Part shown: in pieces, positions 2,311 to 24,910 of the stretch | Layout of the letters: every line of letters begins with the position of its first letter | How positions within the stretch are numbered: the stretch's first letter is position 1 | Virus record (IMG/VR): IMGVR_UViG_3300030105_002630 | Coordinates: 1 to 30,512 of that record | Direction: 5' to 3' (one strand) | DNA: 30,512 bases | Source: a virus | Translations under genes and position numbers: made by a program | Notes under the pieces: model-generated | Told to the model about the DNA's origin: nothing | Databases searched by the model: none | What the model saw: the letters and a program-made list of their open reading frames with translations, nothing else

Positions 2311-2361
2311 TTATAACGATGTATCGGGATACCAATCATCCCACACATCTGGTTCTACCAT
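2311..2361 (-). CDS. Possible 16-residue micro-ORF
   Basis: An ATG overlaps the TAG stop of the upstream 117-residue gene (ATGGTAG), the same kind of overlap used by real genes here. It opens a short frame MVEPDVWDDWYPDTSL that ends before the next gene. Two Trp, one Tyr and five Asp in 16 residues are unusual for chance translation of AT-rich DNA. It could be a real microprotein, a remnant, or coincidence. Confidence 0.22.
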   Translation of the reverse strand: MVEPDVWDDWYPDTSL

Positions 2362-2708
2362 TTTTTGCATGACCAATACCCTGCTGTTGTTTTATCTTTC
2401 TTCTGATGGCATTTATGTCTAGCTCGGAAAGACTTTCTGGCTTTAGGATTATTCTTTCGTATACGCATTGTTTTTTGTCCAGCTTTCTTTGCTGAAGTTC
2501 CTCCGTGTCCAAAGTTAACTTTAATTACATTGCCTTTAGGATTTTTTACATATACTTTAAACTTTTTAACGTCGCCACGCGTTGGTTTATTTAATGTAAC
2601 TTTACGTCCTTTATATTCTGCTTCGGTTAATGATTCTCCAAGTACTCCTTCTCGTATATCTTTCATCATTGATAATCCACAAGCTTCGCAAATTGTTGTT
2701 TCTTCCAT
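2355..2708 (-). CDS. Basic Cys-containing phage protein, possible processed head protein
   Basis: A 117-residue, strongly basic protein. The N-terminus has a CEAC pair (residues 8-11). At residues 26-31 there is ESLTEA, a perfect LxE|A site for a T4-type prohead protease. The C-terminal half, with RKSFRARHKC, KKDKTT and GYWSCKKW, resembles short Lys/Cys-rich modules seen in marine phage proteins, here used alone. High charge would suit DNA contact inside a capsid, as for T4 internal proteins; this is inference. An AGGA ribosome site lies about 9 bases before the ATG. The gene follows the metallopeptidase immediately. The family resemblance is from memory of similar phage sequences. Confidence 0.72.
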   Translation of the reverse strand: MEETTICEACGLSMMKDIREGVLGESLTEAEYKGRKVTLNKPTRGDVKKFKVYVKNPKGNVIKVNFGHGGTSAKKAGQKTMRIRKNNPKARKSFRARHKCHQKKDKTTAGYWSCKKW

Positions 2709-2709
2709 A

Positions 2710-3483
2710 TTATAATTCCTGTCTTATTCCTAGTTTAGGTAACATTGTTCTCCAACGCTTTAATATTATTTCTTTTTGTTCGGCAGTCATGGTGCCATTG
2801 TTAACCCATATATCTAAATAAGTATTAACTACTAATGCAAAAGGCTTACGCTCTTTCTTTGCTCTAGTATATAATCCTTGTATCATTGCCGGCTGTTCTT
2901 TTTGTAACAAGAAATATTGATATTTATCAATCTCCCCACGATCAATTTTCTCTCTACGAGTAGCATCTGATCTCAAATATTTACCCTGCATAACATTCCA
3001 ACCACTTTGTGTTGTATGTTCTATTTCGTGTCGCAAAACATCTTTAAGATTCATAGAAACTTCTGAAAGTATATCCGGATATTCAACAGGATCAATTTCA
3101 AATCTAATTTCTATGAGTGGTGGACTATCAACTTTAGACGGATCTTTAGCAGAGTCATTAAATGCATCTCCTCCTACACGATAATCATCTAGACCTTCTA
3201 CCCATTGAACTTTAAGACTTAAAAAAAATTCTAATGGAATATCCAATGCTTCTACTTCTTCAAAATATATCTCGGGTTGTAAATCTCGGCCGCTATCATC
3301 TGCTGCAACTATATTTGGTACAGTTTCATTTTCTGTATAATATATTTTATGACCCGCAAATTTTCCGTCTGTAGATTGAGTTGAGGAGTAACTATTTTTA
3401 ACTACATTTAACAGTTTATTTGATAGCCTTGTAACTAAGCTGTCATATCGACCTTCTATAATTAATTTACTCAATGATATCAT
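2710..3483 (-). CDS. Putative HExxH metallopeptidase with capsid-targeting-like N-terminus
   Basis: A 257-residue protein. Residues 1-12 are MISLSKLIIEGR, which fits the tag shared across this region, with an IxE|G cut predicted after Glu10. A zinc-binding motif HEIEH lies at 152-156, after a helix rich in charged residues, and a candidate third ligand, Glu196, sits in the segment KEQPAMIQGLY. This layout is that of gluzincin-like peptidases. The start ATG overlaps the TGA stop of the upstream large metallopeptidase-like gene (ATGA), so the two are translationally coupled and may be made in a fixed ratio. The substrate is unknown: candidates are cell-wall crosslinks, head proteins or host proteins. 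Confidence 0.78.
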   Translation of the reverse strand: MISLSKLIIEGRYDSLVTRLSNKLLNVVKNSYSSTQSTDGKFAGHKIYYTENETVPNIVAADDSGRDLQPEIYFEEVEALDIPLEFFLSLKVQWVEGLDDYRVGGDAFNDSAKDPSKVDSPPLIEIRFEIDPVEYPDILSEVSMNLKDVLRHEIEHTTQSGWNVMQGKYLRSDATRREKIDRGEIDKYQYFLLQKEQPAMIQGLYTRAKKERKPFALVVNTYLDIWVNNGTMTAEQKEIILKRWRTMLPKLGIRQEL

Positions 3484-5255
3484 AATAAATTTTTTAATTT
3501 TATGCGTTTAACTCTATTAATAGATCTATTAATAGATATCCACTCACTTAATTTATTGGTTTGTGTTTTTAAATTGTTAACTTGTTTTGCTATTTGCGTC
3601 CTTAATGTTTTTAATCCTGCAGGATCTTTTTTTGACATCGCGTCAAAAAACATTTTAATATCCGCTCGTTCATATCCTAGTATATCAGCAGCATCATCGC
3701 TCCATTGGGTATCTACTCCTTTAGCCCAATTTTCTATTTGATTTAATGCAGATAATGTTTTTTGTTTTCCTATTAAATATCCTTTCTGTTTTGTAGTTTT
3801 AACCATATGACCTAAAACTTGCGGTGTAATTGCATTAACTTCAAATGGATGGAGATAATATGTATTCCAGAATGTTTTACCTGCATCAGCTGGATCTTTT
3901 GAAAGATTGAAACTAGTATATGCTGGTAAATTTTTATCGCTTGGGCTATATCTTGCAGCTAATTTAGGACTAACAAATGAGGGATCTTTAATATGTGCAA
4001 GTTCATGAACAATAATACTTTCAATTTCGGCTTCTGAACGTTGTTTAACAAAATTAACATCGAATATTATTTTATTTTCAGGAAATCCGTAATGTTTAGG
4101 TGTAGCCCAAGCTCTTGTATATCCTCGTTTCCACATATCTGGGTAGTCTTTTTTTACGTCTATGACTTCCATTGTTACATCTACTAATTGATTTTTTGGT
4201 GTTTTTGATACAAATTTTGTCTTCATTAAACCTTTACTTTTGGCTGCTTTGGCTAATAAATCTGCTATTTCTAGGTCGGCAGCTGAAAATTTAATACCTT
4301 GGGTTATTGCGTATTTTGGATTTATTGATTTTCTTGATAAATCTAATACATCATCAAATTTATATGTTCTGTTTAATACTTTAGATTTAATAGTAGCAAT
4401 CTCTGTTGGACTTAGAGTTTTTAACCATTTATTGATACCTTTATCAGCATGTAATTGTTTCATTACTGACAATGGTAATGCCAATTCTTTTTTGATTATA
4501 TTTTGGTTTTTTAATAATTCATTTATTATTACCTGCTCTTTAGGTGTTAACTGTTGTTTATTTACAATTTTCCTAGCTAGTTTAGCAGCTACGTTAGCTG
4601 TTAATTTTTTAACAATTGGTATTCGTTTTACAATAGCACCAACACCTGGTAATAATCCGAATATTGCAGCTAGTCCTGCAGCCTGCTTATTGTCTTGTTT
4701 ATAATATGCATATGAATCTATTAACATAAATCCAGAACTTACTAACAATCCAATAATTGGTATAAATGCAGTTGCAAATGCCAATCCCTCCAATATTTCA
4801 TGTGGCATCATTGTTAACATTTTTATAGGAGCTAGATCTTTATAGCTAAGTCCTTTACTTAATTCTTTTTTAAGTTCAGGTGATGTCCACTTTTCGCCGC
4901 CTCTCCCAAACTCAGATCGATATTCACTAAAAACTTTATCGCCATATGGATATACAGTCCATGCATATGATGATGGAGATGATATATTCATTAAATGATC
5001 TAATACAACTTTATTTTGATTAAAATTATCTAAAAAACTTACTAAATATTCTCCAAGTCCCCTACCATCTGTTAATTTAATTAGCTGTTGTTCTACCTGT
5101 TCTAATTGAGTTTCATTTTTTATAGACTTTACTGCATTGATTGCATCAGATTCATTATCATATGTATAACCCTTTGCATAATAAATTTTATTAGCAATTT
5201 TTTTAGCGTTAAACTTTGTAGACTGTTCTTTTATTATGTTACTGAGCTTCATCAT
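3480..5255 (-). CDS. Large tagged protein: membrane hairpin plus HExxH metallopeptidase
   Basis: A 591-residue protein starting MMKLSNIIKEQS, a predicted capsid-targeting tag with an IxE cut after Glu10. Residues 15-80 form a helical module (KKIANKIYYAKGYT, then DGRGLGEYL). Residues about 150-215 hold two hydrophobic stretches separated by a polar turn, with FIPIIG and LLPGVG motifs, as in the pre-toxin regions of polymorphic toxins. The C-terminal part carries HELAH at 417-421 and a likely third zinc ligand, Glu472, in LHPFEVNA. The protein could therefore be a membrane-inserting, zinc-dependent peptidase carried in the virion; this is inference. The last residues, IKLKNLL, resemble the tag consensus but are C-terminal. 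The stop overlaps the next start. Confidence 0.82.
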   Translation of the reverse strand: MMKLSNIIKEQSTKFNAKKIANKIYYAKGYTYDNESDAINAVKSIKNETQLEQVEQQLIKLTDGRGLGEYLVSFLDNFNQNKVVLDHLMNISSPSSYAWTVYPYGDKVFSEYRSEFGRGGEKWTSPELKKELSKGLSYKDLAPIKMLTMMPHEILEGLAFATAFIPIIGLLVSSGFMLIDSYAYYKQDNKQAAGLAAIFGLLPGVGAIVKRIPIVKKLTANVAAKLARKIVNKQQLTPKEQVIINELLKNQNIIKKELALPLSVMKQLHADKGINKWLKTLSPTEIATIKSKVLNRTYKFDDVLDLSRKSINPKYAITQGIKFSAADLEIADLLAKAAKSKGLMKTKFVSKTPKNQLVDVTMEVIDVKKDYPDMWKRGYTRAWATPKHYGFPENKIIFDVNFVKQRSEAEIESIIVHELAHIKDPSFVSPKLAARYSPSDKNLPAYTSFNLSKDPADAGKTFWNTYYLHPFEVNAITPQVLGHMVKTTKQKGYLIGKQKTLSALNQIENWAKGVDTQWSDDAADILGYERADIKMFFDAMSKKDPAGLKTLRTQIAKQVNNLKTQTNKLSEWISINRSINRVKRIKLKNLL

Positions 5256-5271
5256 AGTACACTAATAAATA

Positions 5272-5820
5272 TCACTCAAGTAAATTATAGTTCCAATAAC
5301 GTTCCTTGTCTTGATTATAAGGATTACCACTTTGTTGATAGTAACAATTAATACAAAGCATCTGTAAATTCTCTATGCAATGATTGGTTATATCACCATC
5401 GATATGATCTAATCGAAGTGGTACAGTGTCATCGGTTATTCGACGTTCTGCATACCCACAACTGTTACATGACTCTGGAAGAATAGCAAGTGCTAAAAGT
5501 CTATTGCGAAGTTTCCATACAGGATACTTAGGATGTTTACCTGTTAATATATTGTCTATAGAATATATTCCTTTATTGGCTTTTACTACATCTTTTGGTA
5601 TTCCAACACCAAATTGATTTTTATGAAGCTCATACAATGTTTTATCAGTGTCTCGATCAATATACATCTTAGCATATTTTTTATATGAAGTAAATGATAT
5701 TTTCAAGAAGCGAGCTGCTGCAGCATTGGACTTTGTGTTTTCCATTGCATAGCGAATGTCTGTTTCAGGGACATTTAACGCAGTTCGACCTTGACCATAT
5801 ACGTACTTATATTCACTCAT
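5272..5820 (-). CDS. HNH endonuclease
   Basis: A 182-residue protein. The N-terminal 50 residues contain a helix-turn-helix-like segment (SNAAAARFLKIS then SYKKYAKMY) that probably binds DNA. The C-terminal part is an HNH nuclease with structural CNSC and CINC zinc pairs around the core LRLDHIDGD and NHCIENLQMLC, supplying the His and Asn residues expected of the fold. It probably nicks or cuts DNA, either as a free-standing homing endonuclease or as a phage DNA-processing enzyme. It lacks the tag seen on its neighbours. Its start overlaps the upstream stop as TAATG, which argues for stable integration in the gene string. Confidence 0.85.
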   Translation of the reverse strand: MSEYKYVYGQGRTALNVPETDIRYAMENTKSNAAAARFLKISFTSYKKYAKMYIDRDTDKTLYELHKNQFGVGIPKDVVKANKGIYSIDNILTGKHPKYPVWKLRNRLLALAILPESCNSCGYAERRITDDTVPLRLDHIDGDITNHCIENLQMLCINCYYQQSGNPYNQDKERYWNYNLLE

Positions 5821-6206
5821 TAATATACTTTACGCTTCTTTAAAAATTCTACAGTATCTCGTACTGACGTTTTAGTTTTATATAAATCTTGTAATTCTAC
5901 TTGTAAATTAGATGTTAAATCTTTAAATGTTCTAGAATAAACTCCACTACGAGTTTGAACTTTGTCTATCCAATATGAATATACCGGGTATAAATCATTG
6001 AATTGATCTGTTGCTGTTCTATTTTCTACATGTTCAATCTGATCTTTTAGTGGCCATAAGTGAAATGGAACATTTGGATCCTTTCGTCGACCTGGTAATT
6101 GTTCGGTATGTTTATTTCTACGTTCATTTCTTGTTATGAACTTGTCCATTAAATTTGCGGATCTGTCTTTTGGTGACTCACCAGAGTGTGCTGCTTTCTT
6201 ACCCAT
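5820..6206 (-). CDS. Hypothetical basic protein
   Basis: A 128-residue protein that I do not recognise. The first 50 residues are polar and rich in Lys, Arg and Asn (AAHSGESPKDRS, then NERRNKHTEQLPGRRKDP), probably disordered. The rest looks helical, with FHLWPLKDQIEH and a Tyr-rich VYSYWIDKVQ. It has no cysteine, membrane segment or signal. The start overlaps the upstream stop by 8 bases, and its stop overlaps the HNH start, so it belongs to a tightly packed string running from the UVR-motif gene to the HNH gene. A DNA-associated or assembly role would fit, but nothing specific supports one. Confidence 0.68.
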   Translation of the reverse strand: MGKKAAHSGESPKDRSANLMDKFITRNERRNKHTEQLPGRRKDPNVPFHLWPLKDQIEHVENRTATDQFNDLYPVYSYWIDKVQTRSGVYSRTFKDLTSNLQVELQDLYKTKTSVRDTVEFLKKRKVY

Positions 6207-6387
6207 CGATTGGTTTATTTTTATTTGTTAATATAACTATTTGTTTCCAAACATCTTCGGCTCGGTATATATATTTTTTAAATTTTACGATATCCTGTTG
6301 TTTTCTTACAATCTGTGCCTTCTTTAGTGTTCGGTGATACTTGGCATGAAGAATTCCTATTCGTATTTTTCTTAAATATTTAAACAT
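6199..6387 (-). CDS. Hypothetical small basic protein
   Basis: A 62-residue, strongly basic, apparently all-helical protein (KYLRKIRIGILHAKYH, then KKAQIVRKQQDIVKFKKY). I recognise no family. It overlaps the ClpS-like gene upstream and the 128-residue gene downstream by 8 bases each, so its translation is probably coupled to both. Position next to a ClpS-like adaptor raises the idea of a small partner protein, but that is only context. Confidence 0.6.
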   Translation of the reverse strand: MFKYLRKIRIGILHAKYHRTLKKAQIVRKQQDIVKFKKYIYRAEDVWKQIVILTNKNKPIDG

Positions 6388-6670
6388 TTCGTTGTTGTTT
6401 TTTCATTGTAACTGTTAACCCAGCTTCTATTAAATGATCTTTTATATTAGAACATATGTTATACTTGTCTACAACAATTGAACATCGTTTTGTATTATGT
6501 GTTAGCAAAGCACATTGATTTGCTTGATATTCATTGTGACCACAAATTTCAACTAAACATGTTATAACATGATCAAAACTAATTGTTTGATCGTTGTGGA
6601 GTATTAATTCCCACGTTCCTCGTTTAGTTAATTTCTTCTTGGACATCTCGTATAATTGCACATTGTTCAT
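6380..6670 (-). CDS. clpS: ClpS-like protease adaptor
   Basis: A 96-residue protein matching the ClpS fold through most of its length. The segment ELILHNDQTISFDHVITCL corresponds to the conserved NDxxT/xFV start of ClpS. CALLTHNTKRCSIVV aligns with the His-containing helix and strand, and IKDHLIEAGLTVTM with the C-terminal strand. Cellular ClpS binds N-terminal destabilising residues and delivers proteins to ClpA or ClpC for ClpP degradation. The His and Asn that line the N-degron pocket appear retained. A phage copy may redirect host proteolysis or speed turnover of chosen proteins; this is inference. An internal ATG at 6646 (MSKKKLTKRG) is an alternative start. It overlaps the upstream UVR-motif gene. 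Confidence 0.8.
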   Translation of the reverse strand: MNNVQLYEMSKKKLTKRGTWELILHNDQTISFDHVITCLVEICGHNEYQANQCALLTHNTKRCSIVVDKYNICSNIKDHLIEAGLTVTMKKQQRNV

Positions 6671-6812
6671 ATAACTCTAACTCTTCTGCATATTGCAATG
6701 ATTCTGATAGAAACTTATTTTTACGTGTATTATCCCATCTATTCGGCCATTCCCAATTATCAGTTTTCATATGATTAATTGATTGAATAAATAATTGTTC
6801 TACGTAATTCAT
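6624..6812 (-). CDS. Small UVR-motif protein
   Basis: A 62-residue protein from the ATG at 6812 (MNYVEQLF); an upstream in-frame ATG at 6836 would add eight residues. The C-terminal 25 residues, with YAEELELYEQCAIIRDVQEEI, fit the UVR motif, a helical hairpin found in UvrB, UvrC, ClpC and the ClpC-activating adaptor McsA. The N-terminal part has a Trp-rich NWEWPNRWDNTR segment. The gene overlaps the ClpS-like gene by 23 or 47 bases depending on the ClpS start. A UVR motif beside a ClpS homologue suggests a shared role in controlling a Clp machine, but a repair-related role is also possible. Confidence 0.65.
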   Translation of the reverse strand: MNYVEQLFIQSINHMKTDNWEWPNRWDNTRKNKFLSESLQYAEELELYEQCAIIRDVQEEIN

Positions 6813-6874
6813 TGTTTTATAACTGCCTGTATACATATTAATATAATAGTAAATATATTGAAAATAACCAAATA

Positions 6875-7531
6875 TTATCTAAGTTTAAGCTTCTGGCCAG
6901 GCTTAATAGGCGTATCTATGTTTATTCCATTTGCTTTGGCAATAGTTAACATTGTTATACCTTTTGGTTGCTTTGATGCAATTGATGATAACGTGTCACC
7001 GTCTTGAACTATATATACCTTAAGACTGTCAGCATAATATTTAAATTTACCATAATTCCAACCCATTCTGGTTTTAACACCAGGATCGCCTTTTTTATAT
7101 TCATTGTGATTGATATATTCTTTAGCAGCTTCTTGCCATTTATTTTGTTTCATTAATTTTACAGTGTTGTGTGTTACTATTAATTCCCCACGAAACATTG
7201 CATTAACTAATGCTTGTTGTACATATCTTGGTAAAGAGTTAATGTCAATACCCAATAGATTTTTAATTTTATATATTGCTTTATCTATATCGTCTTTTAA
7301 AAGATTTGTTGCATATTTTTCTGTAATACCTTTGCTAAAATCTTCTCCAGATTGTATCTTATGGCCATATGCAATAGTTTTTGCTCCGCCTTCTACACTC
7401 TTATGTGGATACCATAATTTCTTTTTACTGTTCCATCCTGACATTACTGAGTTTTCAAATTGTTTCATTAACTTAAGAAAACTACCAGTAGCGATAATTG
7501 ATTCATTTAATATATTACTAAGTCGTATCAT
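6875..7531 (-). CDS. Lysozyme-like protein with LysM domain and capsid-targeting-like tag
   Basis: A 218-residue protein. The first residues, MIRLSNILNES, fit the regional tag with an LxE cut after Glu10. Residues about 20-165 resemble GH24 phage lysozymes: a candidate catalytic Glu26 in QFENSV, then GGAKTIAYGHKI matching the TIGIGH region of T4 lysozyme, and NAMFRGE further on. The catalytic Asp position is less clear because of an insertion. Residues about 170-218 are a LysM peptidoglycan-binding domain (YIVQDGDTLSSIA, ending PGQKLKLR). A lysozyme packaged in the particle would act during entry, unlike the untagged amidase at 19805-20722. The start overlaps the upstream stop (ATGA). Confidence 0.82.
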   Translation of the reverse strand: MIRLSNILNESIIATGSFLKLMKQFENSVMSGWNSKKKLWYPHKSVEGGAKTIAYGHKIQSGEDFSKGITEKYATNLLKDDIDKAIYKIKNLLGIDINSLPRYVQQALVNAMFRGELIVTHNTVKLMKQNKWQEAAKEYINHNEYKKGDPGVKTRMGWNYGKFKYYADSLKVYIVQDGDTLSSIASKQPKGITMLTIAKANGINIDTPIKPGQKLKLR

Positions 7532-8451
7532 TTCTTTCCTGCTTTCATATTAGCACACCAATGGTACATTTTGCCTCGTTCACCACCATATTTTTTAGCT
7601 TTGGCCCGTAAACTACTTACAGAGCCTTTACAACTAGCACCAGAGCGTTTAACTCTACCTGGTCTGCTTTTTCCTTTAACCTTTTTATCAGCAAAATTTT
7701 CTGTTACATCTCTGTAATTAAGGCCTGGAGGGAATGTCCCCATTTTTCTTTTAGCTGCAGCTTTAGTCTTATACGGTCCAAATTCTTGTGTTATACCTGG
7801 AGAAAATGGATTATCTTGTCTATAATAATATTTATCTCCTCGTTTTTCTATAGCACGATATCTGTTGCTACTCGGATTACCAAATCCTGACGAAGCTGGA
7901 GTACCACTTATTGTTTCTTTTACCTTTTTATATCCAGATCCATATGGTGCTGCTTTACCATCATGATTAGGCGCAATGCTTTCAGATTTTCTCATTCTTT
8001 GAGTTTTCTCTTTAGACGCAGCTTTCTTCTTTTTAATATATTCAAATGCAGAACGTAAACGTTTTTTCTTTTCAGGATCTTTTGTACGATCAACTGCTGC
8101 ACGTAATCTTTGATGTATAAGATTTATAATTTGTGATTGACGTTTATGAGATTTGTTTTTAAAACTAGATTTATTTAAAGTGTCAACAACATCTTGTTTA
8201 GTTTTAAACTTTACCGACACAGTGTCGTTTGGATTTTCATCTGTATATAAACGACGACTAGACCCTTTTGGTTTCTTACCAGTTCCCTTTTTAGGATCTT
8301 CTTTTAATTGTGGAGTATTATCATGGCCGCATTTATGACATATATATAAATCATCACCACCATCTTTTATTTTCCAAGACCATCCACAGTTATCACATTT
8401 AATTGAATTACCAATAATAGCTTCAGTTAATATGTGTTTTAATTTAATCAT
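7528..8451 (-). CDS. Modular basic Cys-rich protein with zinc ribbon and tag
   Basis: A 307-residue protein; I chose the ATG at 8451 because it gives MIKLKHILTEA, the clearest regional tag (LxE|A), and lies one base after the upstream stop. Next comes a zinc-ribbon-like module with CDNCGWSW and CHKCGHD, then a Lys/Arg-rich helical region (PEKKKRLRSAFEYIKKKKAA), a Gly/Tyr-rich stretch, and a C-terminal cassette with GASCKGSVSSLRAKAKKYGG and YHWCANMKAG. Such short cassettes recur in different orders in marine phage proteins. The strong basic charge suits DNA binding within the head. No enzymatic motif is visible. Confidence 0.78.
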   Translation of the reverse strand: MIKLKHILTEAIIGNSIKCDNCGWSWKIKDGGDDLYICHKCGHDNTPQLKEDPKKGTGKKPKGSSRRLYTDENPNDTVSVKFKTKQDVVDTLNKSSFKNKSHKRQSQIINLIHQRLRAAVDRTKDPEKKKRLRSAFEYIKKKKAASKEKTQRMRKSESIAPNHDGKAAPYGSGYKKVKETISGTPASSGFGNPSSNRYRAIEKRGDKYYYRQDNPFSPGITQEFGPYKTKAAAKRKMGTFPPGLNYRDVTENFADKKVKGKSRPGRVKRSGASCKGSVSSLRAKAKKYGGERGKMYHWCANMKAGKK

Positions 8452-8452
8452 T

Positions 8453-9247
8453 TTACTTTTTTGACTTATTGCCCCAATTAGCTGCACCCTTTTTTCTGCA
8501 TTGAACTAATGCTCCGGATGCATATGCACTAGGCCATACTTTGTATCTGGCTTTAACTTTATGGTAACACGCATCTCGCTTTTTTGTTTTTGATTTTTCA
8601 TCTAAAACAGATTCTTTTTTTGTTGTGCTAGAAACATTTTTAGCTTTACCACGTCGATTTTTCTTTGGATCTTCTCTTCGTTTTTTACGAACTGCAGCAC
8701 CTCTTTCTTCTTTAGACATACTAGCCGCAGCTTTTTTTGAAAGACATTTTGGTTTACCTTCGCCTTTCTTTCTATCGCCACACTTACCAATTTTTTCTCC
8801 TTTGGTATTGTAACGATCCCATCCGCCTCCAGATGAACTACCTTTTGCACCCGTACCAAACCAAGATCTTAAATCTTCTTCAATCTCATCTTCATACATG
8901 ATCATTTGATCTTTTTCAGAAAATCCATCATCTGGAAGTTTTGCTTCTTGCTTTACACAATTAGGAACACGCTTTCCGAACATGGTTTTCATGCCCTTCT
9001 TTTTATATCCTTTCCAACAACGGGTACCTTTTTCATTTAATGAATCCTCATCAACTATATCTGGTAAGTTTTTATGTTTAGTTGAAGCATATTTATCAAC
9101 ATCTTTCTTTGTCATACTTTTAGCTACTTTACCAGCTTCACCCTTTTTAGGTATATCGCCTTTTTTCATAGCTTTAACTACACCAAAGAATTTTTGCTGT
9201 TGTTTAGATACTGACTTTTCCGTTAATAGGTCTTTAAGTTTAATCAC
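8453..9247 (-). CDS. Modular basic protein with DUF3008-like module and tag (GTG start)
   Basis: A 264-residue protein starting at a GTG that overlaps the TGA of the superoxide dismutase gene. This start gives (M)IKLKDLLTEKS, the regional tag; the ATG 24 bases upstream would bury it. Residues 15-60 (QQQKFFGVVKAMKKGD, then KDVDKYASTKHKNLP) resemble DUF3008. A CWKGYKKKGMKTMFGKRVPNCV cassette follows, split here as CWKGYKKKGM and RVPNCV, then a Gly-rich WDRYNTKGEKIGKCG to PKCLSKKAA cassette, and a C-terminal KARYKVWPSAYASGALVQCR cassette. All are short, basic and Cys-containing. The likely role is as an internal head protein; the biochemical function is unknown. Confidence 0.78.
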   Translation of the reverse strand: MIKLKDLLTEKSVSKQQQKFFGVVKAMKKGDIPKKGEAGKVAKSMTKKDVDKYASTKHKNLPDIVDEDSLNEKGTRCWKGYKKKGMKTMFGKRVPNCVKQEAKLPDDGFSEKDQMIMYEDEIEEDLRSWFGTGAKGSSSGGGWDRYNTKGEKIGKCGDRKKGEGKPKCLSKKAAASMSKEERGAAVRKKRREDPKKNRRGKAKNVSSTTKKESVLDEKSKTKKRDACYHKVKARYKVWPSAYASGALVQCRKKGAANWGNKSKK

Positions 9248-9882
9248 AATCTTTCCTCTACTACTTTCCAATCAACAACACGAAAGAAATCATTGATATA
9301 AGAACCACGTTTGCTTCGATGTTTTAAGTAATATGCATGTTCCCAAACGTCCATACCTAATATAGGTGTTCTACCCATTCCTGGCTCGAAAGCTGGATTA
9401 TCTTGATTAGCAGTGCTTTTGATATCTAACTTTCCATTGTTAGCACACAACCAAACCCAACCAGATCCAAATTGATCTAATCCTGATTGTTTAAATTCTT
9501 CTTTAAATTCAGTGAAACTACCAAATGAATCATTAATCATTGCCATTAACTTTACACTTGGTGCTTTATAATTAGGAGTCATGTTTTCAAAATATAACAA
9601 ATGATTTATATATCCTCCGCCATTGTTTCTAATAGCATCTTTTTTATAATGTTTTTTGCATATGTCTATAGCTCGTTCTAATAATCCATGTTTATCTGAT
9701 GAATATTTAAACTCTTTACATGCAGCATTAAATTTATCAGTGTATCCTTTGAAGTGCTTTTTATAATGTTCTTCCATTGTAGCAGTATCAATAACTGGAT
9801 TCAATGCAGACAATTTATATACCAATGGAAGTCGTTTAAAGTCTTGTTGCTTTGCTTCCGTTAAAATACTCATTAATTTCAT
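9244..9882 (-). CDS. sod: Fe/Mn superoxide dismutase with capsid-targeting-like tag
   Basis: A 212-residue protein of the Fe/Mn superoxide dismutase family, which turns superoxide into oxygen and hydrogen peroxide. The metal ligands are visible in order: His in KKHFKGY, His in GGGYINHLLYFEN, Asp and His in MDVWEHAYYLKH. The conserved GSGWVWL is also present, so it should be active. Ordinary members begin at about the LPLVYKL segment; this one has an extra N-terminus MKLMSILTEAKQQDFKR with an LTE|A site after Glu9. No cell-export signal is present. The tag predicts packaging in the phage head, where it might protect the particle or the newly infected cell. Its start overlaps the upstream stop (TAATG). 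Confidence 0.93.
   Translation of the reverse strand: MKLMSILTEAKQQDFKRLPLVYKLSALNPVIDTATMEEHYKKHFKGYTDKFNAACKEFKYSSDKHGLLERAIDICKKHYKKDAIRNNGGGYINHLLYFENMTPNYKAPSVKLMAMINDSFGSFTEFKEEFKQSGLDQFGSGWVWLCANNGKLDIKSTANQDNPAFEPGMGRTPILGMDVWEHAYYLKHRSKRGSYINDFFRVVDWKVVEERL
9251..9259 (-). promoter_or_regulatory. Ribosome binding site that fixes a GTG start
   Basis: The transcribed strand reads AGAGGAAAG here, with the AGAGG core 7 bases before the GTG at 9247. It lies inside the end of the superoxide dismutase gene. It supports the GTG start, which exposes the tag, over the upstream ATG at 9271. Confidence 0.5.
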
Positions 9883-10031
9883 TATTCATCTTCCTTGGGT
9901 TTAACAGAAACTAATTTTTCCATTATTTTTTCATATTCTTTATATGTAATATTAGTAGCATCAACTGCTTCTAAGTATCCTTTAAGCCATTGCACAAATT
10001 CATGTGCTGTTATTTTTTCGTAATTTGACAT
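9882..10031 (-). CDS. Hypothetical 49-residue protein
   Basis: A small gene between two longer ones, linked to both by TAATG overlaps: its ATG overlaps the stop of the 98-residue gene and its TAA overlaps the superoxide dismutase start. The product starts MSNYEKITAHEFVQWLKGYL and ends VKPKEDE. It has a single amphipathic helical pattern and no cysteine or membrane segment. The HEFVQWLKGYL segment resembles short phage proteins of unknown role. The exact fit between neighbours is the main evidence for it. Confidence 0.65.
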   Translation of the reverse strand: MSNYEKITAHEFVQWLKGYLEAVDATNITYKEYEKIMEKLVSVKPKEDE

Positions 10032-10327
10032 TATTTGCCTTTCAACGCGCCTTTCAATACTCCTTTTAAAGTCATATCAGTAGCTTTATTATGCATAGGT
10101 CTAGATTCTGCACCTCTTACATAATGAGTCATATAATCTTTTACTTTATTCATGTAATCAGAAGCCAATGTTATTTTAGCTTCTAACCATTCTGGTAAAT
10201 CATCAGTTTCTTGAATCATATTAGCTATATCCATTGCATCTTCAGCACATTCTATAGCAGAATATTTTGCCATTTTGCCTTCACGTTCTTCGTGTCCACA
10301 ACCACAATCTTCTTCTAATTCTTTCAT
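10031..10327 (-). CDS. Small phage protein with DCGCG motif
   Basis: A 98-residue protein starting MKELEEDCGCGHEE. The middle, with AEDAMDIANMIQETDDLPEWL and SDYMNKVKDYMTHY, is a helical module that I recall from many marine T4-like phage genomes (an IT/xASDYM pattern) without a known function. The C-terminus is a short basic tail (KGVLKGALKGK). The Cys pair echoes the DCGCD motif of the protein encoded just upstream, and its start overlaps that gene's stop (ATGA). The two are probably partners or share a metal-binding or structural element; this is inference. Confidence 0.72.
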   Translation of the reverse strand: MKELEEDCGCGHEEREGKMAKYSAIECAEDAMDIANMIQETDDLPEWLEAKITLASDYMNKVKDYMTHYVRGAESRPMHNKATDMTLKGVLKGALKGK

Positions 10328-10497
10328 TTTTTTCCCTTATAAATAGACCAATTCTTTGTTTTTTCATTCAACCAATCTTGGCGCTTATCACATCCACAAT
10401 CTTCATCTAGTATCTTTGCAATTCGCTCAGACAATTTGTCTAATCGTGTTGCTGATGTAATTTTTTTTATATCATCACCTAATCCTTTTGACTTCAT
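10324..10497 (-). CDS. Small phage protein with DCGCD motif
   Basis: A 57-residue protein from the ATG at 10497, which overlaps the upstream TGA (ATGA). A GGAGGAGG ribosome site lies within the end of the upstream gene. It starts MKSKGLGDDIKKITSATRLDKL and carries EDCGCDKRQDWLNEKT. The GLGDxIKKIT...DCGCDKRxxxLN pattern recurs in phages of Bacteroidota and in marine phages, from memory. Its function is unknown. The pairing with the next DCGC protein is notable. Confidence 0.7.
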   Translation of the reverse strand: MKSKGLGDDIKKITSATRLDKLSERIAKILDEDCGCDKRQDWLNEKTKNWSIYKGKK

Positions 10498-10964
10498 GTT
10501 ATAGGGCCTCCTCCAACCCACGCATCACAACTTCTTGCTCCTGCACATTTAAACCAAAAGAATTCACAAAATCCAATATTTGCATTTTTTACTACTGTTT
10601 TACCATCATCTCCTATAGCTTTTTCAATTTTAGCTAATGTAGATTTTTTTTGATCAAATGCACCACAATTTGAACATGTTGATTGTTTTGCAGCTTCTGG
10701 AGTAGTATTCCAAAGTTCTGCTTTATCTTCCCAAAAAGACTTTGAGCCTTTTTCGTCATCTGGATTAATTGGTCCGTAGCTATACTCTTTAATAGTTAAA
10801 TTTCTATTTTTTGTATTAAAATCTAATTCAGTGATAGCGTCTTCTGGCTTCTTTTTCTTAGTTTGTTTATCGTTCTTTAATGCAATAGGAGTATTATATC
10901 CTGGCCAATCAGATAGCCTTCCTTCTAGGATAGTATCTTTGAGTAATGTTTTTAATGTTTTCAT
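10494..10964 (-). CDS. Cys-motif phage protein with tag-like N-terminus
   Basis: A 156-residue protein. The N-terminus MKTLKTLLKDTILEGR is a longer variant of the regional tag, with an ILE|G cut predicted after Glu14. After a polar linker (TKKKKPEDA) the C-terminal half has STCSNCGAFDQ, then GFCEFFWFKCAG, then RSCDAWVGGGP. Five cysteines in a CxxC...C...C...CxxW arrangement recall the cluster pattern of high-potential iron-sulfur proteins, though spacing differs, so this is only a suggestion; a zinc site is equally possible. I have seen this C-terminal pattern in marine phage proteins of unknown function. The gene follows a gap with an inverted repeat. Confidence 0.72.
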   Translation of the reverse strand: MKTLKTLLKDTILEGRLSDWPGYNTPIALKNDKQTKKKKPEDAITELDFNTKNRNLTIKEYSYGPINPDDEKGSKSFWEDKAELWNTTPEAAKQSTCSNCGAFDQKKSTLAKIEKAIGDDGKTVVKNANIGFCEFFWFKCAGARSCDAWVGGGPIT

Positions 10965-10982
10965 ATATTAATAAATATTTAC

Positions 10983-11009
10983 TTAGTAAAGATTATAAAA
11001 TTTTACTAA
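10983..11009 (-). terminator. AT-rich inverted repeat, possible weak terminator
   Basis: TTAGTAAA and TTTACTAA form a perfect 8-bp inverted repeat with an 11-base loop, directly after the stop of the 133-residue gene. The stem is nearly all A-T and no uninterrupted U run follows, so termination would be weak. It could instead be an operator or mRNA-stability element. Confidence 0.2.
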
Positions 11010-11012
11010 ACG

Positions 11013-11414
11013 TTATTTTTCTTTATCGCCCAATTCTGGATGAAATCCTAAATGTACTTTTTTTACTGAATCATCAAATGACTTACCATCACCTTTTAAT
11101 TCTGCAGGAACTATATTTGTTGGATCTTTATACCAATATTGAACATCATACCCTCCAGATTTCTTCCATGTTACTATTAGTCCTCTATCATATTCATCAC
11201 TTTCAGCATGTAATATTATTTTTTGACCTTGTGGTAATTTTAAATCAGATGTTATTGACTTATCCTTTTTGGAATGTTTATCTTCACTAACAGTGTCTTT
11301 ACCACCTTGTTGTTCAAACTCAGTAAGTCCATTTTTTGATAAATAGGAACGACTCCATCGTTTAGGAGCAGTTGACTGTTCCCAACCTTTTAATATATTT
11401 TTTAGTTTCATCAT
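11013..11414 (-). CDS. Hypothetical protein with tag-like N-terminus
   Basis: A 133-residue protein starting MMKLKNILKGWEQS, which matches the regional tag up to residue 8 but has GWE where others have xE. A second LxE, in NGLTEFEQQ near residue 32, could be the actual processing site. A Lys/Asp/Ser-rich linker follows, then a compact C-terminal domain with PQGQKIILHAESDEYDRG, VTWKKSGGYDVQYWYKDP and DDSVKKVHLG. That domain looks like a small beta-rich fold; I do not recognise it. The start overlaps the upstream stop (ATGA). A packaged head protein is the best guess. Confidence 0.65.
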   Translation of the reverse strand: MMKLKNILKGWEQSTAPKRWSRSYLSKNGLTEFEQQGGKDTVSEDKHSKKDKSITSDLKLPQGQKIILHAESDEYDRGLIVTWKKSGGYDVQYWYKDPTNIVPAELKGDGKSFDDSVKKVHLGFHPELGDKEK

Positions 11415-12652
11415 TTTTTATATCCCGTTTGTTTTAACATATTAGCTAATTCTTGACTACGACCTGAACCAATACCTTTTGTAGGCGTTTTACCCGGTCC
11501 TTTTTTAAAATCAGTCTTGTGATGATGTCCTGTTCCCCATGGGCCGCCATAGTCTGCATAATTGTGTTCTTTACCAAATGGTCCAGCAAAGTCTTGTTCA
11601 GTCATTACGTTCATGTCAGTGAGACGTATTCTTAATTTTTTTAACAATGTGTTCTGTTCTGGAGTAACAGGTATTTCAAATACTTGTCCTCCCGGGTACC
11701 CATAATCATTATCTGGATGCATCATTTTAGTATCACCAGTATCATCAATACCCAAAACTTTGTAGTTAACATTGTTCATTGTTATGTTACCACTAGGTAT
11801 CATAGTGCACTTACCTGGATGTTTCAATTGACCTTCTGAATCTGCAACGGCATCTGTGTGTTTCATTACACGTTGCCATCCTTCTTTGTCTAATAATTTA
11901 CGTTTTGTGATATGAGCTGCTAATTCATCTACTACGGTATCATACTGTTCTTCTACAACGGCTTCTACTCGAAGTTGATTCATTGTTATCTCTTTACGTA
12001 GTTGTTTAATATGAGCGAGTAACCCTTTATTCCTAATTCGTTTAAAAGCTAAATTTTCTGCAGAATATTCTCCTTCAGCTTCTAATCCAGTTTTACGCAT
12101 TTTATATAAACGACTTAATATAGTTTTTAATTTATATTCAAGTTTTGGATCGTGTTCATCTAAATTGCTTATCTCATATTCCAATGGAGCTGCTTTGGCT
12201 TCTATAATTTCATCATCAATTGATATTACATCCGCATTAGGTTTTTTCAACCATTTGTCTTGCATCAATGAATATTGTCCTACTGAAGAATGAAGTTGTG
12301 TGTTTGAATCTTGTGCATATAATTCTATATCCATTCCTTTATATGTTAATGGATAATTATTAAACCATATGCTTTTTTTAGCCATCATGTAATTTTTAAC
12401 TAAATGCACATTGCTACCAACTGCTCGATGATCAATAATTATATGTAGATCTATATCAGATTTAGCAGTCCAATTATAATTTGCATTACTTCCTATTAGT
12501 ATTACGTCTAATACTGGAACTTCATCAATTTCTAAAAATTCAAAGAATGCTTTTGCAATTCGAAGAAATTTATGTCTTAGTCCTTTTTTAAGACGATCAC
12601 CTTCCCATAGTTTAGGATTCAGTGTGCTCTGTGTTTCATATTCTGTTAACAT
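11411..12652 (-). CDS. Pol-beta-type nucleotidyltransferase domain protein
   Basis: A 413-residue protein. Residues 1-4 are MLTE, a minimal LxE site, followed by TLNPKLWEGDRLKKGLRHK. The nucleotidyltransferase signature is clear at about residues 53-71: GSNANYNWTAKSDIDLHII, with the DxD metal ligands, and a likely third acidic residue in MDIELYAQD. Such domains move a nucleotide onto protein, RNA or a small molecule. The middle is helical. The C-terminal ~140 residues contain HPGKCTMIPSG, HPDNDYGYPGG and a His-rich GGPWGTGHHHKTD, modules seen in other marine phage proteins. If it is carried in the head it could modify a host target on entry; this is inference. Its start overlaps the upstream stop (TAATG). 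Confidence 0.82.
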   Translation of the reverse strand: MLTEYETQSTLNPKLWEGDRLKKGLRHKFLRIAKAFFEFLEIDEVPVLDVILIGSNANYNWTAKSDIDLHIIIDHRAVGSNVHLVKNYMMAKKSIWFNNYPLTYKGMDIELYAQDSNTQLHSSVGQYSLMQDKWLKKPNADVISIDDEIIEAKAAPLEYEISNLDEHDPKLEYKLKTILSRLYKMRKTGLEAEGEYSAENLAFKRIRNKGLLAHIKQLRKEITMNQLRVEAVVEEQYDTVVDELAAHITKRKLLDKEGWQRVMKHTDAVADSEGQLKHPGKCTMIPSGNITMNNVNYKVLGIDDTGDTKMMHPDNDYGYPGGQVFEIPVTPEQNTLLKKLRIRLTDMNVMTEQDFAGPFGKEHNYADYGGPWGTGHHHKTDFKKGPGKTPTKGIGSGRSQELANMLKQTGYKK

Positions 12653-15006: not shown

Positions 15007-15351
15007 TTAAAATCCACTCATTTGGATTTCATCTATCTTGCCTTGTACCTGTGATTTAGTAGCTTTCATACTAAATGATATATCTGCTTGGTATCGTTTA
15101 ACTTCTTTCCCATGATCAAATATAATAATTGTAGGTACAACTACTATTTCATACTTTGTTGCCGATTTTGTATCAGTAGCAATATCACATTTTTTTACCT
15201 TAGCATCACTTAAATTATAAATCCATTTTACATTGTTAGCTGAATTCCAACCTGCATTGAAATGTACTATTGTTAAATCACTTCCAATTTTCATTTGGCT
15301 AAGTAATGTAAATGGAAGAAAGAATAATAGTATTAATATTAATTTTTTCAT
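15007..15351 (-). CDS. Exported thioredoxin-like protein lacking CxxC
   Basis: A 114-residue protein with a signal peptide (MKKLILILLFFLPFTLLSQ). The mature part follows the thioredoxin fold: strand TIVHFNAGWNS, then CDIATDTKSATKYEIVVVPTIIIFDHG with the conserved cis-proline motif VPT and the following strand, then an SxxxxxKI helix. Where thioredoxins have WCxxC this protein has GWNSANN, so both active cysteines are missing and it cannot act as a dithiol oxidoreductase. It probably serves as a binding or chaperone domain in the periplasm. A GAGG ribosome site lies 5 bases before the ATG. Confidence 0.78.
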   Translation of the reverse strand: MKKLILILLFFLPFTLLSQMKIGSDLTIVHFNAGWNSANNVKWIYNLSDAKVKKCDIATDTKSATKYEIVVVPTIIIFDHGKEVKRYQADISFSMKATKSQVQGKIDEIQMSGF

Positions 15352-15660: not shown

Positions 15661-16731
15661 TTAAAATACTACGTAATTTATTCCTACACTAAAGTCGTGC
15701 CAATTACGATTCCAATATTTATTATATTTACCTTCTAAAAATATTCCTAAACTTTTATTAAACTTATATCCAAAAATTAATCCTCCGGAGTAGTCTACCC
15801 ATTGTCCTTGATTAAATGTATGATATGAAAATTCATTTCCTGTCTTTATATGATACGGCATTATATTACCCCATGAGTGAATCCAAAATTCTTTTGTATA
15901 ATGATAAAAATCAAAGCCTAATACAAAAGAGTATTCAATTTGAGAAGATAATTCATTTCTTTTCTTTTCTGTGTAATCTGATAACATAGAAGGAATAGCT
16001 ACCGCTTCCCATACTTCTGTACTTGTTGCAACTGAATTACCATTAGGATCAAAATATTCAATAGCACCACTACCATCAAACTCAACTCTATATCCTTCTT
16101 GTATAGCTAAGTCAGTGTAATGTAAGTTACCATTAGATAACATCCACTCTTCTAAAGGATTATATCCATATGGTTCCGAAAGTCGTTGTACAGCTCCTAT
16201 ATTCAAAGAAAACTTACCTTGTTTATCTATTTTTTGTCTGTATCTCTGAGATGCTTCAAAGTATTCTATATCAGCAAACCCATCTTGAAGATATTCTACT
16301 TTAGCTATCCAACGATCAGCTACATATCGTAAGAAGTGATGTTGATTCAGGAAGTTAGTTCCTTGCTGTCTAGTATAATCAGCTTCAAATAAAAATTCAA
16401 ATCCTTTTATTTTACCTATAGTAGCAGCATCAGAGTATGACTTTTCTGTACCATCATAAAATACATTAGCTCTATTTTCATATCCTAGTCTTGCAATCTT
16501 TCTTATACCTAATGCAATTGAAAAATCAAAAGGAGTTTTAATAGTGCTCGTCTCTAATCCGTTTGTAACTGAATACACATCTACATCTGATATAGAGTTA
16601 CCTCCATTAACGGCTCCATATACCGTTGCAAATTTAAACGTCTTTTTTAACGTTCTTTTAAATTTACCTTGCTCTTGTGCATTAATATTTAAAACGTTTA
16701 ATGCAAATAATAATATTAATAACTTTTTCAT
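15661..16731 (-). CDS. Outer-membrane beta-barrel protein
   Basis: A 356-residue protein with a clear signal peptide (MKKLLILLFALNVLNINAQ). The mature part has many alternating strands with aromatic ends, such as GFEFLFEADYTR, WIAKVEYLQDG, FSLNIGAVQRL and YSFVLGFDFYHY, and ends in SVGINYVVF, a terminal Phe typical of outer-membrane barrels. No enzyme motif is seen. Its ATG overlaps the TGA of the T9SS cargo gene upstream (ATGA), so the two are coupled and likely function together at the host outer membrane, for example as anchor and surface part. Masking a phage receptor is another option. It may have been acquired from a Bacteroidota host. Confidence 0.8.
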   Translation of the reverse strand: MKKLLILLFALNVLNINAQEQGKFKRTLKKTFKFATVYGAVNGGNSISDVDVYSVTNGLETSTIKTPFDFSIALGIRKIARLGYENRANVFYDGTEKSYSDAATIGKIKGFEFLFEADYTRQQGTNFLNQHHFLRYVADRWIAKVEYLQDGFADIEYFEASQRYRQKIDKQGKFSLNIGAVQRLSEPYGYNPLEEWMLSNGNLHYTDLAIQEGYRVEFDGSGAIEYFDPNGNSVATSTEVWEAVAIPSMLSDYTEKKRNELSSQIEYSFVLGFDFYHYTKEFWIHSWGNIMPYHIKTGNEFSYHTFNQGQWVDYSGGLIFGYKFNKSLGIFLEGKYNKYWNRNWHDFSVGINYVVF

Positions 16732-19499: not shown

Positions 19500-19506
19500 A
19501 TTTATT

Positions 19507-19746
19507 TTAGTTTTCGTCTGATTGTTTAGATTTAAATATTTTCCCTGCTTCAGCAATACCAAAACTTCCTAAGGTTATCCATAAGAATGAGTTATAAATA
19601 AAGTCGTTAATTACTAAGTCAGTACCAGTCCAACCAGTTACTACATCAGCAACAGCAAATATTACCATTACTGCAAATGATGCAAATCCTACTACGCTTT
19701 TTTCGTTGATGTCATTGTCATCTTTAAAGATGTTTCCAAATGCCAT
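19507..19746 (-). CDS. Holin-like small membrane protein
   Basis: A 79-residue protein from the ATG at 19746 (MAFGNIFKDDNDINEKS); an upstream ATG at 19782 would add 12 basic residues. It has two hydrophobic segments (VVGFASFAVMVIFAVADVV and FIYNSFLWITLGSFGIAEA) and a short charged tail (KIFKSKQSDEN). Its size, two spans and position directly after the endolysin gene fit a holin, which permeabilises the inner membrane at lysis. No sequence motif proves this, and similar small proteins in marine phages are often unannotated. Confidence 0.68.
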   Translation of the reverse strand: MAFGNIFKDDNDINEKSVVGFASFAVMVIFAVADVVTGWTGTDLVINDFIYNSFLWITLGSFGIAEAGKIFKSKQSDEN

Positions 19747-21609: not shown

Positions 21610-22289
21610 ACTTTACTCCAATCAGTTAATGGTGATAACCATGCAGTTTCGCCGTGTGTTGCATAGCCTGGTAAGGGTGTTATTAACAGTTCATTGTTAT
21701 CTCTTAGCTCTAAAAACATTTGAAAGTCGTTTGGATGTGTTTCTGATGTCCATTTTCTTAAAATTGACTCAACTCTTTTAAGAGTACTAACTTTAGCTGC
21801 AAATGTCATGGTTGTTGAATTTGTAACTTTCCAATGACATGAATCTGTAAGATACACTCTAGTATCTTCCCCACCACCTTCGCAATATGGGTTACCGCCT
21901 CTCAACGGATCTAAGTACTTATCAGGGTGATCATAAAGAGAAACAAATGATGCACCTAAACTAAATCCTTCATTAATAATATCAGATGACTCTTTTTTAT
22001 GAATATAATCATTTTCTACAAAATAAACTATCTCATCATCATCATACGTTAAAGCTATATCTAACGCTAAATTAAATGTTCCTGCACCATGGCCAACACT
22101 AACATGTTTAATAGAAACTTCGTGTTGTTGAATCATTTCTCTTGTATTATCTGAAATATTATCAGCCATAACTAATATATCATGATCTTGAAATGTCCAT
22201 ACAAAGTTACTTAAACATTTTTTATTATCTATATATTCTGGTTTTTCTTTTTTATAACCAGTATCTGATATTCTATATATTATTTTCAT
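21606..22289 (-). CDS. Glycosyltransferase-like protein
   Basis: A 227-residue protein. It has a GT-A-like layout without the usual GT2 opening: MKIIYRISDTGYKKEK, then DILVMADNISDNT, a GAGTFNLALDIAL segment, and an acidic motif VYFVENDYIHKK around residue 93 in the DxD position. Later segments are Gly-rich (LRGGNPYCEGGGEDT) and end HGETAWLSPLTDW. I place it as a probable glycosyltransferase from this motif order and its position between two sugar genes; the family is unassigned. It overlaps the PseB-like gene by 17 bases. Confidence 0.72.
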   Translation of the reverse strand: MKIIYRISDTGYKKEKPEYIDNKKCLSNFVWTFQDHDILVMADNISDNTREMIQQHEVSIKHVSVGHGAGTFNLALDIALTYDDDEIVYFVENDYIHKKESSDIINEGFSLGASFVSLYDHPDKYLDPLRGGNPYCEGGGEDTRVYLTDSCHWKVTNSTTMTFAAKVSTLKRVESILRKWTSETHPNDFQMFLELRDNNELLITPLPGYATHGETAWLSPLTDWSKV

Positions 22290-23190
22290 GTATTAATTTT
22301 TCTAATTCGTGTTTTGACATATCTATTGCATTCCTAGATGAGTGCTCTTCATGTAAATTTTTATTCTGTTTTGTTGTGTGTATAAATACAAAGTCATCAA
22401 CTGTATTTGTATATGGTAGTTCATTTCTACTAATTAATGTTTCGTTAAGTTTTTCACCTGGCCGTTTGCCTATAATCTCCACCTCTTTATCTGACAGATT
22501 TTTGGCTAACGATAATAGATTTACATTCTTCATAATCTTACATAATATAAATGATTCTGTCATTTTCATAGCACTTACTATAGATGTATAAACTAATTCA
22601 GCTGATTCTTCTTTTGAAAACATTAATCGATTCATCCCTGCATCTGTTAACTTTAATGCATTTCCTTTACTAGCTTGTGATATCCAGAATGGTATAACAG
22701 AACCATTACTACCTGCTACATTAGCAAATCTAGTGCAAACAAATTTTGTTTTTTGATTATGATGTTCCATAAACATTTTCTCCATCATCTTTTTTGTATA
22801 GCCATACACACTATCAGGATCACAAGCTTTATCTGTACTAATCCCAACTGTTAATGGAACTCCGGCTCGCACACTAGCTTTAATAACATTAAGACTACCT
22901 CTAATATTTATTTTTATAGCACTAGTTGGATTTTCCTCTGCTAAATTTATATGCTTTAACGCTGCGGAGTGGATTACTATATCAGGCTTAATTTGCTCAA
23001 AAATATTTATTAAATGCTCTAAGTCAAGAATGTCTCCTACATGGCTCTCTACTTTAGGGTAATTTTGTTTTAGTTCTGCAATGTTATTTTCGTTTCTACT
23101 AACATTATAAAACTTATATTTACTATAATATTTTTTTATAAACGCCGTACCCACTGTACCGGTACCTCCTGTTATCAATACTCGCTTCAT
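22273..23190 (-). CDS. PseB-like NAD(P)-dependent nucleotide-sugar 4,6-dehydratase
   Basis: A 305-residue short-chain dehydrogenase-type enzyme from the ATG at 23190, which follows an AGAGGAG site and overlaps the upstream TGA. The Rossmann motif VLITGGTGTVG is at residues 4-14. The catalytic segment has STDKACDP and SVYGYTKK, matching the Asp-Lys and YxxxK residues of FlaA1/PseB-type UDP-GlcNAc 4,6-dehydratases. A CapD-like protein with another substrate is also possible. The product would be an early intermediate for a nonulosonic acid or deoxyamino sugar. The matching aminotransferase (PseC) is not in the window. Confidence 0.85.
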   Translation of the reverse strand: MKRVLITGGTGTVGTAFIKKYYSKYKFYNVSRNENNIAELKQNYPKVESHVGDILDLEHLINIFEQIKPDIVIHSAALKHINLAEENPTSAIKINIRGSLNVIKASVRAGVPLTVGISTDKACDPDSVYGYTKKMMEKMFMEHHNQKTKFVCTRFANVAGSNGSVIPFWISQASKGNALKLTDAGMNRLMFSKEESAELVYTSIVSAMKMTESFILCKIMKNVNLLSLAKNLSDKEVEIIGKRPGEKLNETLISRNELPYTNTVDDFVFIHTTKQNKNLHEEHSSRNAIDMSKHELEKLIHENNI

Positions 23191-24909: not shown

Positions 24910-24910
24910 A

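Follow-up and report, generated by a model that had tools for sequence, protein, structure and literature searches.

Does a phage deliver superoxide dismutase (SOD) to its host as a finished protein? This question is raised by IMG/VR virus record IMGVR_UViG_3300030105_002630, positions 1 to 30,512, a 30.5-kb stretch referred to here as the window, which has 41 called genes and whose likely genes lie almost all on the minus strand. One of these genes encodes an SOD with an additional short N-terminus. Judged from sequence comparison, with a probability of roughly 0.75, the product would be a catalytically competent, Mn-type SOD carried as cargo in the head of a T4-like phage. The two features in question are the following, a slash marking here and below a protease-type cut site.

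9244-9882, minus strand: Mn-type Fe/Mn superoxide dismutase, ATG start, 212 aa (Pfam, ligands, predicted fold)
9856-9882, minus strand: putative capsid-targeting propeptide MKLMSILTE, predicted cut after Glu9 (LTE/A)

The first point to be settled is whether the enzyme is likely to work. Both parts of the family match above the Pfam cut-off, Sod_Fe_N over residues 19-102 (4.2e-18) and Sod_Fe_C over residues 109-211 (8.8e-37). The first-pass annotation of this DNA had described an Fe/Mn SOD with all four metal ligands kept, and a residue check confirmed it (H39, H94, D178 and H182); the second-shell residues H43, Y47, Q160 and E181 are kept as well. The assignment of ligands and second shell uses the E. 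coli MnSOD numbering (including His30, Tyr34 and Glu170), which we take to apply here, and the equivalents of Gly77 and Gln146 presumably indicate Mn as the metal. In the PDB it is matched best by Mn and cambialistic SODs, and AlphaFold2 gave a confident SOD fold with a mean pLDDT (predicted local distance difference test) of 86.6. Ligands and second-shell residues are kept in 39/39 SODs of the clade that shares the N-terminal tag, and in 35/35 marine and 39/39 freshwater viral SODs (74/74). Such complete retention of the catalytic residues points to selection for catalysis and thus to a working enzyme, and we argue for a catalytically competent Mn-type SOD.

The protein begins with MKLMSILTEAKQQDFKRLPL. 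Residues 1-18 are outside the SOD domain because Pfam coverage begins at residue 19, and it is solely at residues 1-10, modelled as a short helix, that pLDDT falls below 50. According to the available portions of the T4 literature, the internal proteins (IPs) and Alt have short N-terminal propeptides that are removed by the protease gp21; the IP propeptides are 10-19 residues long, and 10 residues of IPIII are enough for targeting as a capsid-targeting sequence, CTS (PMC9026906). An Asp at position 10 of the IPIII tag stops the cleavage while leaving targeting intact (PMC9026906). Alt is cleaved at ITE-6, after six residues, and at LTE-619 (PMC5694885). The window tag, with nine residues up to the predicted cut and an [LI]xE end, matches this build of a capsid-targeting propeptide cut by prohead protease. 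It had been noted in the first-pass annotation that normal SODs lack MKLMSILTEA, and none of 80 bacterial SODs was found to have a similar tag; [ILVM]xE occurs at 22-65 residues before the first ligand in six of the 80, in no case resembling the window tag.

A scan of viral contigs supplied 48 loci with related SODs (L002-L049). In L002-L039 all 38 SODs have a tag or site at this place, 33 at the N-terminus and five internally (L015, L017, L022, L031 and L035). Two cargo domains are fused in L031 and L035, with a complete second tag, [MI]KMSDILLE/A, retained between them. Alignment of a subset of 19 phage SODs from these loci showed an invariant Glu9 (19/19), Leu (18) or Ile (1) at P3 and five different residues at P2, which is the pattern of a protease site and not of a random extension. 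In a profile scan, 80 stretches were kept out of at least 600 matched. A freshwater group has its SODs in open frames some 220-740 aa long, and the domain is directly preceded by a site, for example LITE/MKKIGIEKLPYSY; of 32 distinct sequences, 27 have Glu in this position, P3 is Ile or Leu and P2 is variable. A tree of 157 SODs, with the tag left out, placed marine viral, freshwater viral and 80 bacterial SODs mutually apart; it was built by a quick method, its deep branches are weak, and marine and freshwater were sorted by locus number, L086 and L129 of the freshwater set grouping with the marine ones. Three freshwater loci (L091:5923-7458, L094:562-2118 and L133) have a C-terminal region judged by eye to be similar to a PD-(D/E)XK nuclease, for which Pfam gave no match in L091 and L094.

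Could the SOD be an ordinary auxiliary enzyme, expressed in the infected cell against the oxidative stress of host and replicating phage, with an extension that is incidental? A host-expressed role has been proposed for the reactive oxygen species (ROS) genes of freshwater phages, SODs included (PMC6802176, available portion), and other viral contigs hold untagged SODs. However, in an incidental extension the Glu would not be invariant and fixed in its position. Moreover, the tag is common to neighbouring genes, recurs as junctions between polyprotein modules and is accompanied by a change in charge. We therefore consider a purely auxiliary role unlikely, although it could coexist with packaging. 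The first-pass annotation had stated that untagged phage homologues would refute packaging. Such homologues do occur (L040, L041, L045, L046 and Vibrio phage 2.275.O). Untagged viral SODs are, however, acidic, with an isoelectric point (pI) of 4.6-4.8 in L040, L041 and L044 (the last cut at a contig end) and 6.2-6.3 in L045 and L046, and the L045 and L046 contigs (167 and 266 kb) have neither T4-type capsid nor protease genes. Thus, they do not refute packaging in the tagged lineage.

The charge of the tagged enzymes bears on a different explanation. For the SOD domain, 80 bacterial sequences have a median pI of 5.3, against 7.3 for 35 marine viral and 9.4 for 39 freshwater viral ones; these sequences are related and not independent, so that significance is overstated. 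The window SOD has a pI of 8.95 and a charge of about +5 to +6. The T4 internal proteins are likewise basic (PMC9026906, available portion), and a tagged basic SOD could be packaged mainly as a DNA-condensing structural core protein in which catalysis is a relic. The ligands and second shell, kept without exception in the marine and freshwater viral sets, argue against this, and we hold it to be very unlikely.

It had also been claimed that the SOD tag matches the tag of its neighbours, and five further genes of the cluster do start alike. The tag pattern marks 7/41 called window genes, the seventh on a doubtful alternative start only. The six clear tagged genes, the SOD among them, all fall within a 17-gene stretch (2355-12652; P = 0.0028), a value to be read with the fact that the pattern was devised after the sequences had been inspected and the stretch picked after the tags had been seen. 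Over the window and L002-L049, 142/906 genes carry the pattern against a mean of 3.35 (maximum 13) in 20 shuffles of the N-termini, the 906 including many near-copy loci. Members of this stretch, besides the SOD, include the following.

2355-2708, minus strand: possible cargo, basic module after an internal SLTE/A; five related-phage loci have it at 46-62% identity
2710-3483, minus strand: tagged MISLSKLIIE/GRYD, HEIEH metallopeptidase-like motif; internal module in L017, L076 and Immutovirus
3480-5255, minus strand: tagged MMKLSNIIKE/Q, 591 aa, HELAH metallopeptidase-like motif (weak matches only)
6875-7531, minus strand: tagged MIRLSNILNE/S, phage lysozyme plus LysM (Pfam, tag pattern)
7528-8451, minus strand: tagged MIKLKHILTE/A, Zn-ribbon-like stretch (by eye), internal LKE/D site, then GTGKKP module
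8453-9247, minus strand: tagged MIKLKDLLTE/K, GTG start, DUF3008 domain, very basic (Pfam, tag pattern, pI)
9882-10031, minus strand: 49-aa open reading frame; its stop and the start codon of the SOD overlap (TAATG)
10494-10964, minus strand: probable cargo with a longer leader, MKTLKTLLKDTILE/GR; homologues labelled high potential iron-sulfur protein
11013-11414, minus strand: possible cargo, MMKLKNILKGWE; the L038 homologue begins MKIKDILLE/E; internal module in L017

The iron-sulfur label of 10494-10964 comes from six phage records at 30-37% identity, and the product itself has no Pfam match. The Zn-ribbon-like stretch and the GTGKKP module of 7528-8451 are separate polyprotein modules in relatives. 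It might be supposed that the tag leads elsewhere than the mature head interior, to the tail, the membrane or a scaffold destined for complete degradation; the short helix predicted for it would suit this, and the lysozyme neighbour could act in the tail. But the tag resembles the T4 CTS with its LxE cut, the neighbours are diverse enzyme-like proteins, and in several relatives the SOD gene is beside head genes. Another destination is in our estimate the least probable of the alternatives considered, by a little.

Packaging in the head is also supported by relatives in which the SOD is one module of a long chain. The SOD lies inside single open frames of 1,306 (L015), 1,253 (L017), 1,014 (L074), 1,411 (L075) and 1,616 (L076) residues, the last three lengths being counted from stop to stop. 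The other modules include a nucleotidyltransferase-like domain, HExxH metallopeptidase-like domains (by eye), an acetyltransferase, a zeta-toxin-like kinase and a plastocyanin-type cupredoxin (6.7e-14 in L017, 4e-16 in L075). Homologues of window genes 2710-3483, 7528-8451 and 11013-11414 are internal modules of these polyproteins, and alignments show that the module order varies from phage to phage. When module edges were taken from BLAST alignments in six polyproteins of shared ancestry, the sixth from Immutovirus, an [ILVM]xE was found near 31/39 N-edges (12.9 expected) and 29/44 C-edges (14.3 expected). These counts replace an earlier one, 22/22 module starts against 6.0 expected, for which the marks had been picked by eye post hoc. 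The L075 junction KINE/ADPKKGTGKKP is nearly identical to the tag end of a separate L005 gene, DILAE/ADPKKGTGKKP, so that tag and junction look interchangeable.

Among cultured phages, Immutovirus of Flavobacterium sp. LMO8 (NC_055915) has the closest prohead protease, which is 78% identical to the L050 one. No SOD match was found in it; its 908-aa polyprotein has two HExxH-type stretches and a peptidase junction, VMAE/GRYD. The gene for this chain (L064:12132-14855) is annotated as NMN (nicotinamide mononucleotide) adenylyltransferase, a label that fits only part of the multi-module protein. The L076 polyprotein (L076:4219-9024) has its zeta-toxin-like kinase module (7e-10) beside the SOD.

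T4-type head genes were looked for in contigs that carry the SOD. An S77 protease is present in 12/32 and a gp23-type capsid in 13/32 SOD contigs, most of the others being short fragments; the two occur together in 6/14 contigs of the first set, and the second set of 18 has S77 in six and gp23 in seven. Some freshwater SODs are on contigs of 273 and 294 kb that carry both. The SOD lies upstream of T4-type terminase and portal genes in L038. Going by coordinates, SOD and protease are roughly 10-16 kb apart in five of six contigs; in the sixth, G002, the gap is about 76 kb. The major capsid proteins have similar sites where their propeptide, with edges placed by position, should end: KQ[LI]V.E (e.g. 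KQLVVE) in the marine group and FLINE/A or HLINE/S in the freshwater group. The 30.5-kb window is too short to hold head genes. A direct link of its contig to capsid genes failed for want of a terminase or sheath match, and a route through its AAA gene, which has many relatives, was used instead: 12 long contigs were chosen by this gene or gene 11411-12652, at 69-78% identity, and gp23 was found in 8/12 and S77 in 8/12. The window thus most likely derives from a T4-like phage.

Several observations weigh against packaging. There is no terminase or sheath match in the window, a PHROGs scan of 20 window proteins found no capsid or protease family, and gp23, S77, terminase and sheath were all without a match on the contigs of the nearest relatives (L007, L009 and L010; at most 47.6 kb); the T4 kinship of the window is therefore indirect. 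The SOD is present in 0/12 of the long related contigs and is thus accessory. The major capsid proteins of the marine group have V, not L or I, at the matching P3. The 63 tagged genes other than SOD are not significantly more basic than 392 untagged ones (median pI 8.2 vs 6.6, P = 0.19). In addition, [ILVM]xE is a weak motif that arises often by chance in long N-terminal extensions. A count of this motif anywhere before the first ligand (77/80 viral vs 6/80 bacterial) did not serve as main evidence, given the greater length of viral N-termini and the frequency of the motif, and alone it proves little; fixed position and module edges were relied on in its place. The count leaves out L042, L043 and L045-L049, which are truncated or unmatched by the patterns, the fairer figure with untagged L045 and L046 being 77/82, and L044, one of its three loci without a site, has its N-terminus cut by a contig end. 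Finally, delivery and role depend on the analogy with T4, and the roles proposed below are guesses.

Taken with these points, the head packaging proposed in the first-pass annotation is well supported by comparison: we infer it from the form of the tag, the conserved site, the protease and capsid genes of relatives, the polyprotein junctions and the charge. By homology, MKLMSILTE would act as a capsid-targeting sequence and draw the SOD into the core of the prohead. Cleavage after Glu9 by the S77 prohead protease would follow, as the conserved [LI]xE site suggests, and the head would then contain an SOD about 203 residues long. By analogy with T4, the enzyme would probably be injected into the host along with the DNA and could be active at once, before phage gene expression. 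It might there remove superoxide of the host or of a defence response; it might, as a second benefit, also protect the packaged DNA. T4 packages and delivers beta-galactosidase and other foreign enzymes by fusion to CTS or IPIII (PMC9026906 and PMC10229621, available portions), and the packaged beta-galactosidase forms active tetramers (PMC10229621); an SOD dimer is therefore not too large.

The SOD would be one module of a swappable cargo set with metallopeptidase-like, lysozyme, iron-sulfur-like, copper-protein and nucleotidyltransferase-like members. Some phages encode these as individual genes, each with its own tag, and others as polyproteins that bear sites of protease type. A wider and more tentative proposal, to which we give slightly less than an even chance, is that aquatic T4-like phages, jumbo phages included, use the prohead protease to process polyproteins, with freely shuffled enzyme modules separated by [LI]xE, in one chain or as tagged genes, which are cut in the prohead and co-injected as a kit. 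SOD, cupredoxin and the iron-sulfur-like protein could then act in the first minutes against superoxide from the host or its defences.

Known systems resemble this arrangement in part. With T4 it shares the short N-terminal propeptide ending in [LI]xE and the basic cargo of IPI-IPIII and Alt, together with the S77 protease and gp23-type capsid, here in relatives of the window phage. Unlike in T4, the cargo is a complete antioxidant enzyme of cellular type, with no IP or Alt homologue, and relatives carry it as polyproteins. Polyvalent proteins (Iyer et al. 2017, PMC5512222) are also multidomain, mix-and-match proteins with metallopeptidase domains that are thought to be injected. Several effector domains, which define them, are absent from the single-domain window SOD gene but present in L015, L017 and L074-L076. 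That paper proposes processing by zincin domains, whereas here the module edges bear sites of prohead-protease type; a text search did not find the term superoxide dismutase in it. In phage P1 an N-terminal signal likewise directs a large protein, DarB, into the head, but the signal of the Dar proteins is different and their role is antirestriction (PMC9024508, available portion).

The chloroviruses had been offered in the first-pass annotation as a precedent for an SOD in the virion, and rightly so. A245R of PBCV-1 is an active SOD packaged in the virion, and infected cells have less superoxide than with virus lacking the SOD; it is, however, a Cu/Zn SOD of a eukaryotic virus, unrelated in fold and packaging route (PMC7019647, available portion), and packaging of the window SOD is predicted from genes. 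SOD genes in phages are also known from the work on freshwater ROS-defence genes, which reads them as host-expressed and, in its available portion, does not propose capsid delivery (PMC6802176). A literature search over open-licence PubMed Central papers listed none that deals with a packaged phage SOD, and it gave no virion proteomics in print for such phages.

If the packaging reading is correct, phages supply antioxidant enzymes that already work, as proteins and not only as genes, and the usual view of such SOD genes as host-expressed metabolic helpers changes. Superoxide handling would be part of the entry step, which hints at an oxidative pressure at that point that has gone unrecognised. 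Head cargo would be predictable from an [LI]xE leader or junction, and many unnamed phage proteins would become readable.

Other phage SODs were set aside. Matches in phage collections at 36-46% identity (H1-H13) resemble bacterial DNA in phage records; H11, the one examined, has bacterial-type genes as its neighbours. Bacterial-type genes flank the SOD in L354 (MW462191.1), named Bacteriophage sp., a region that is probably host DNA. PA5oct-like SODs were too divergent to be used; one of this group, from Pseudomonas phage MIJ3 (L352:2983-3531), begins MNDSIKKYISIAE/A, which is capsid-tag-like, and adjoins ClpS and small heat-shock genes.

Elsewhere in the window, 15007-15351 (minus strand) encodes a thioredoxin-like protein with a signal-like N-terminus, another redox protein close to the cargo cluster. 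A 944-aa protein (16728-19562, minus strand) has a T9SS type A sorting domain (6.6e-13), which is odd in a phage and points to a host that is probably of the Bacteroidota. A sugar cluster (22273-28945, minus strand) contains PseB-like, NeuB, PseF-like and glycosyltransferase-like genes, and synthesis of nonulosonic acid by the phage is possible.
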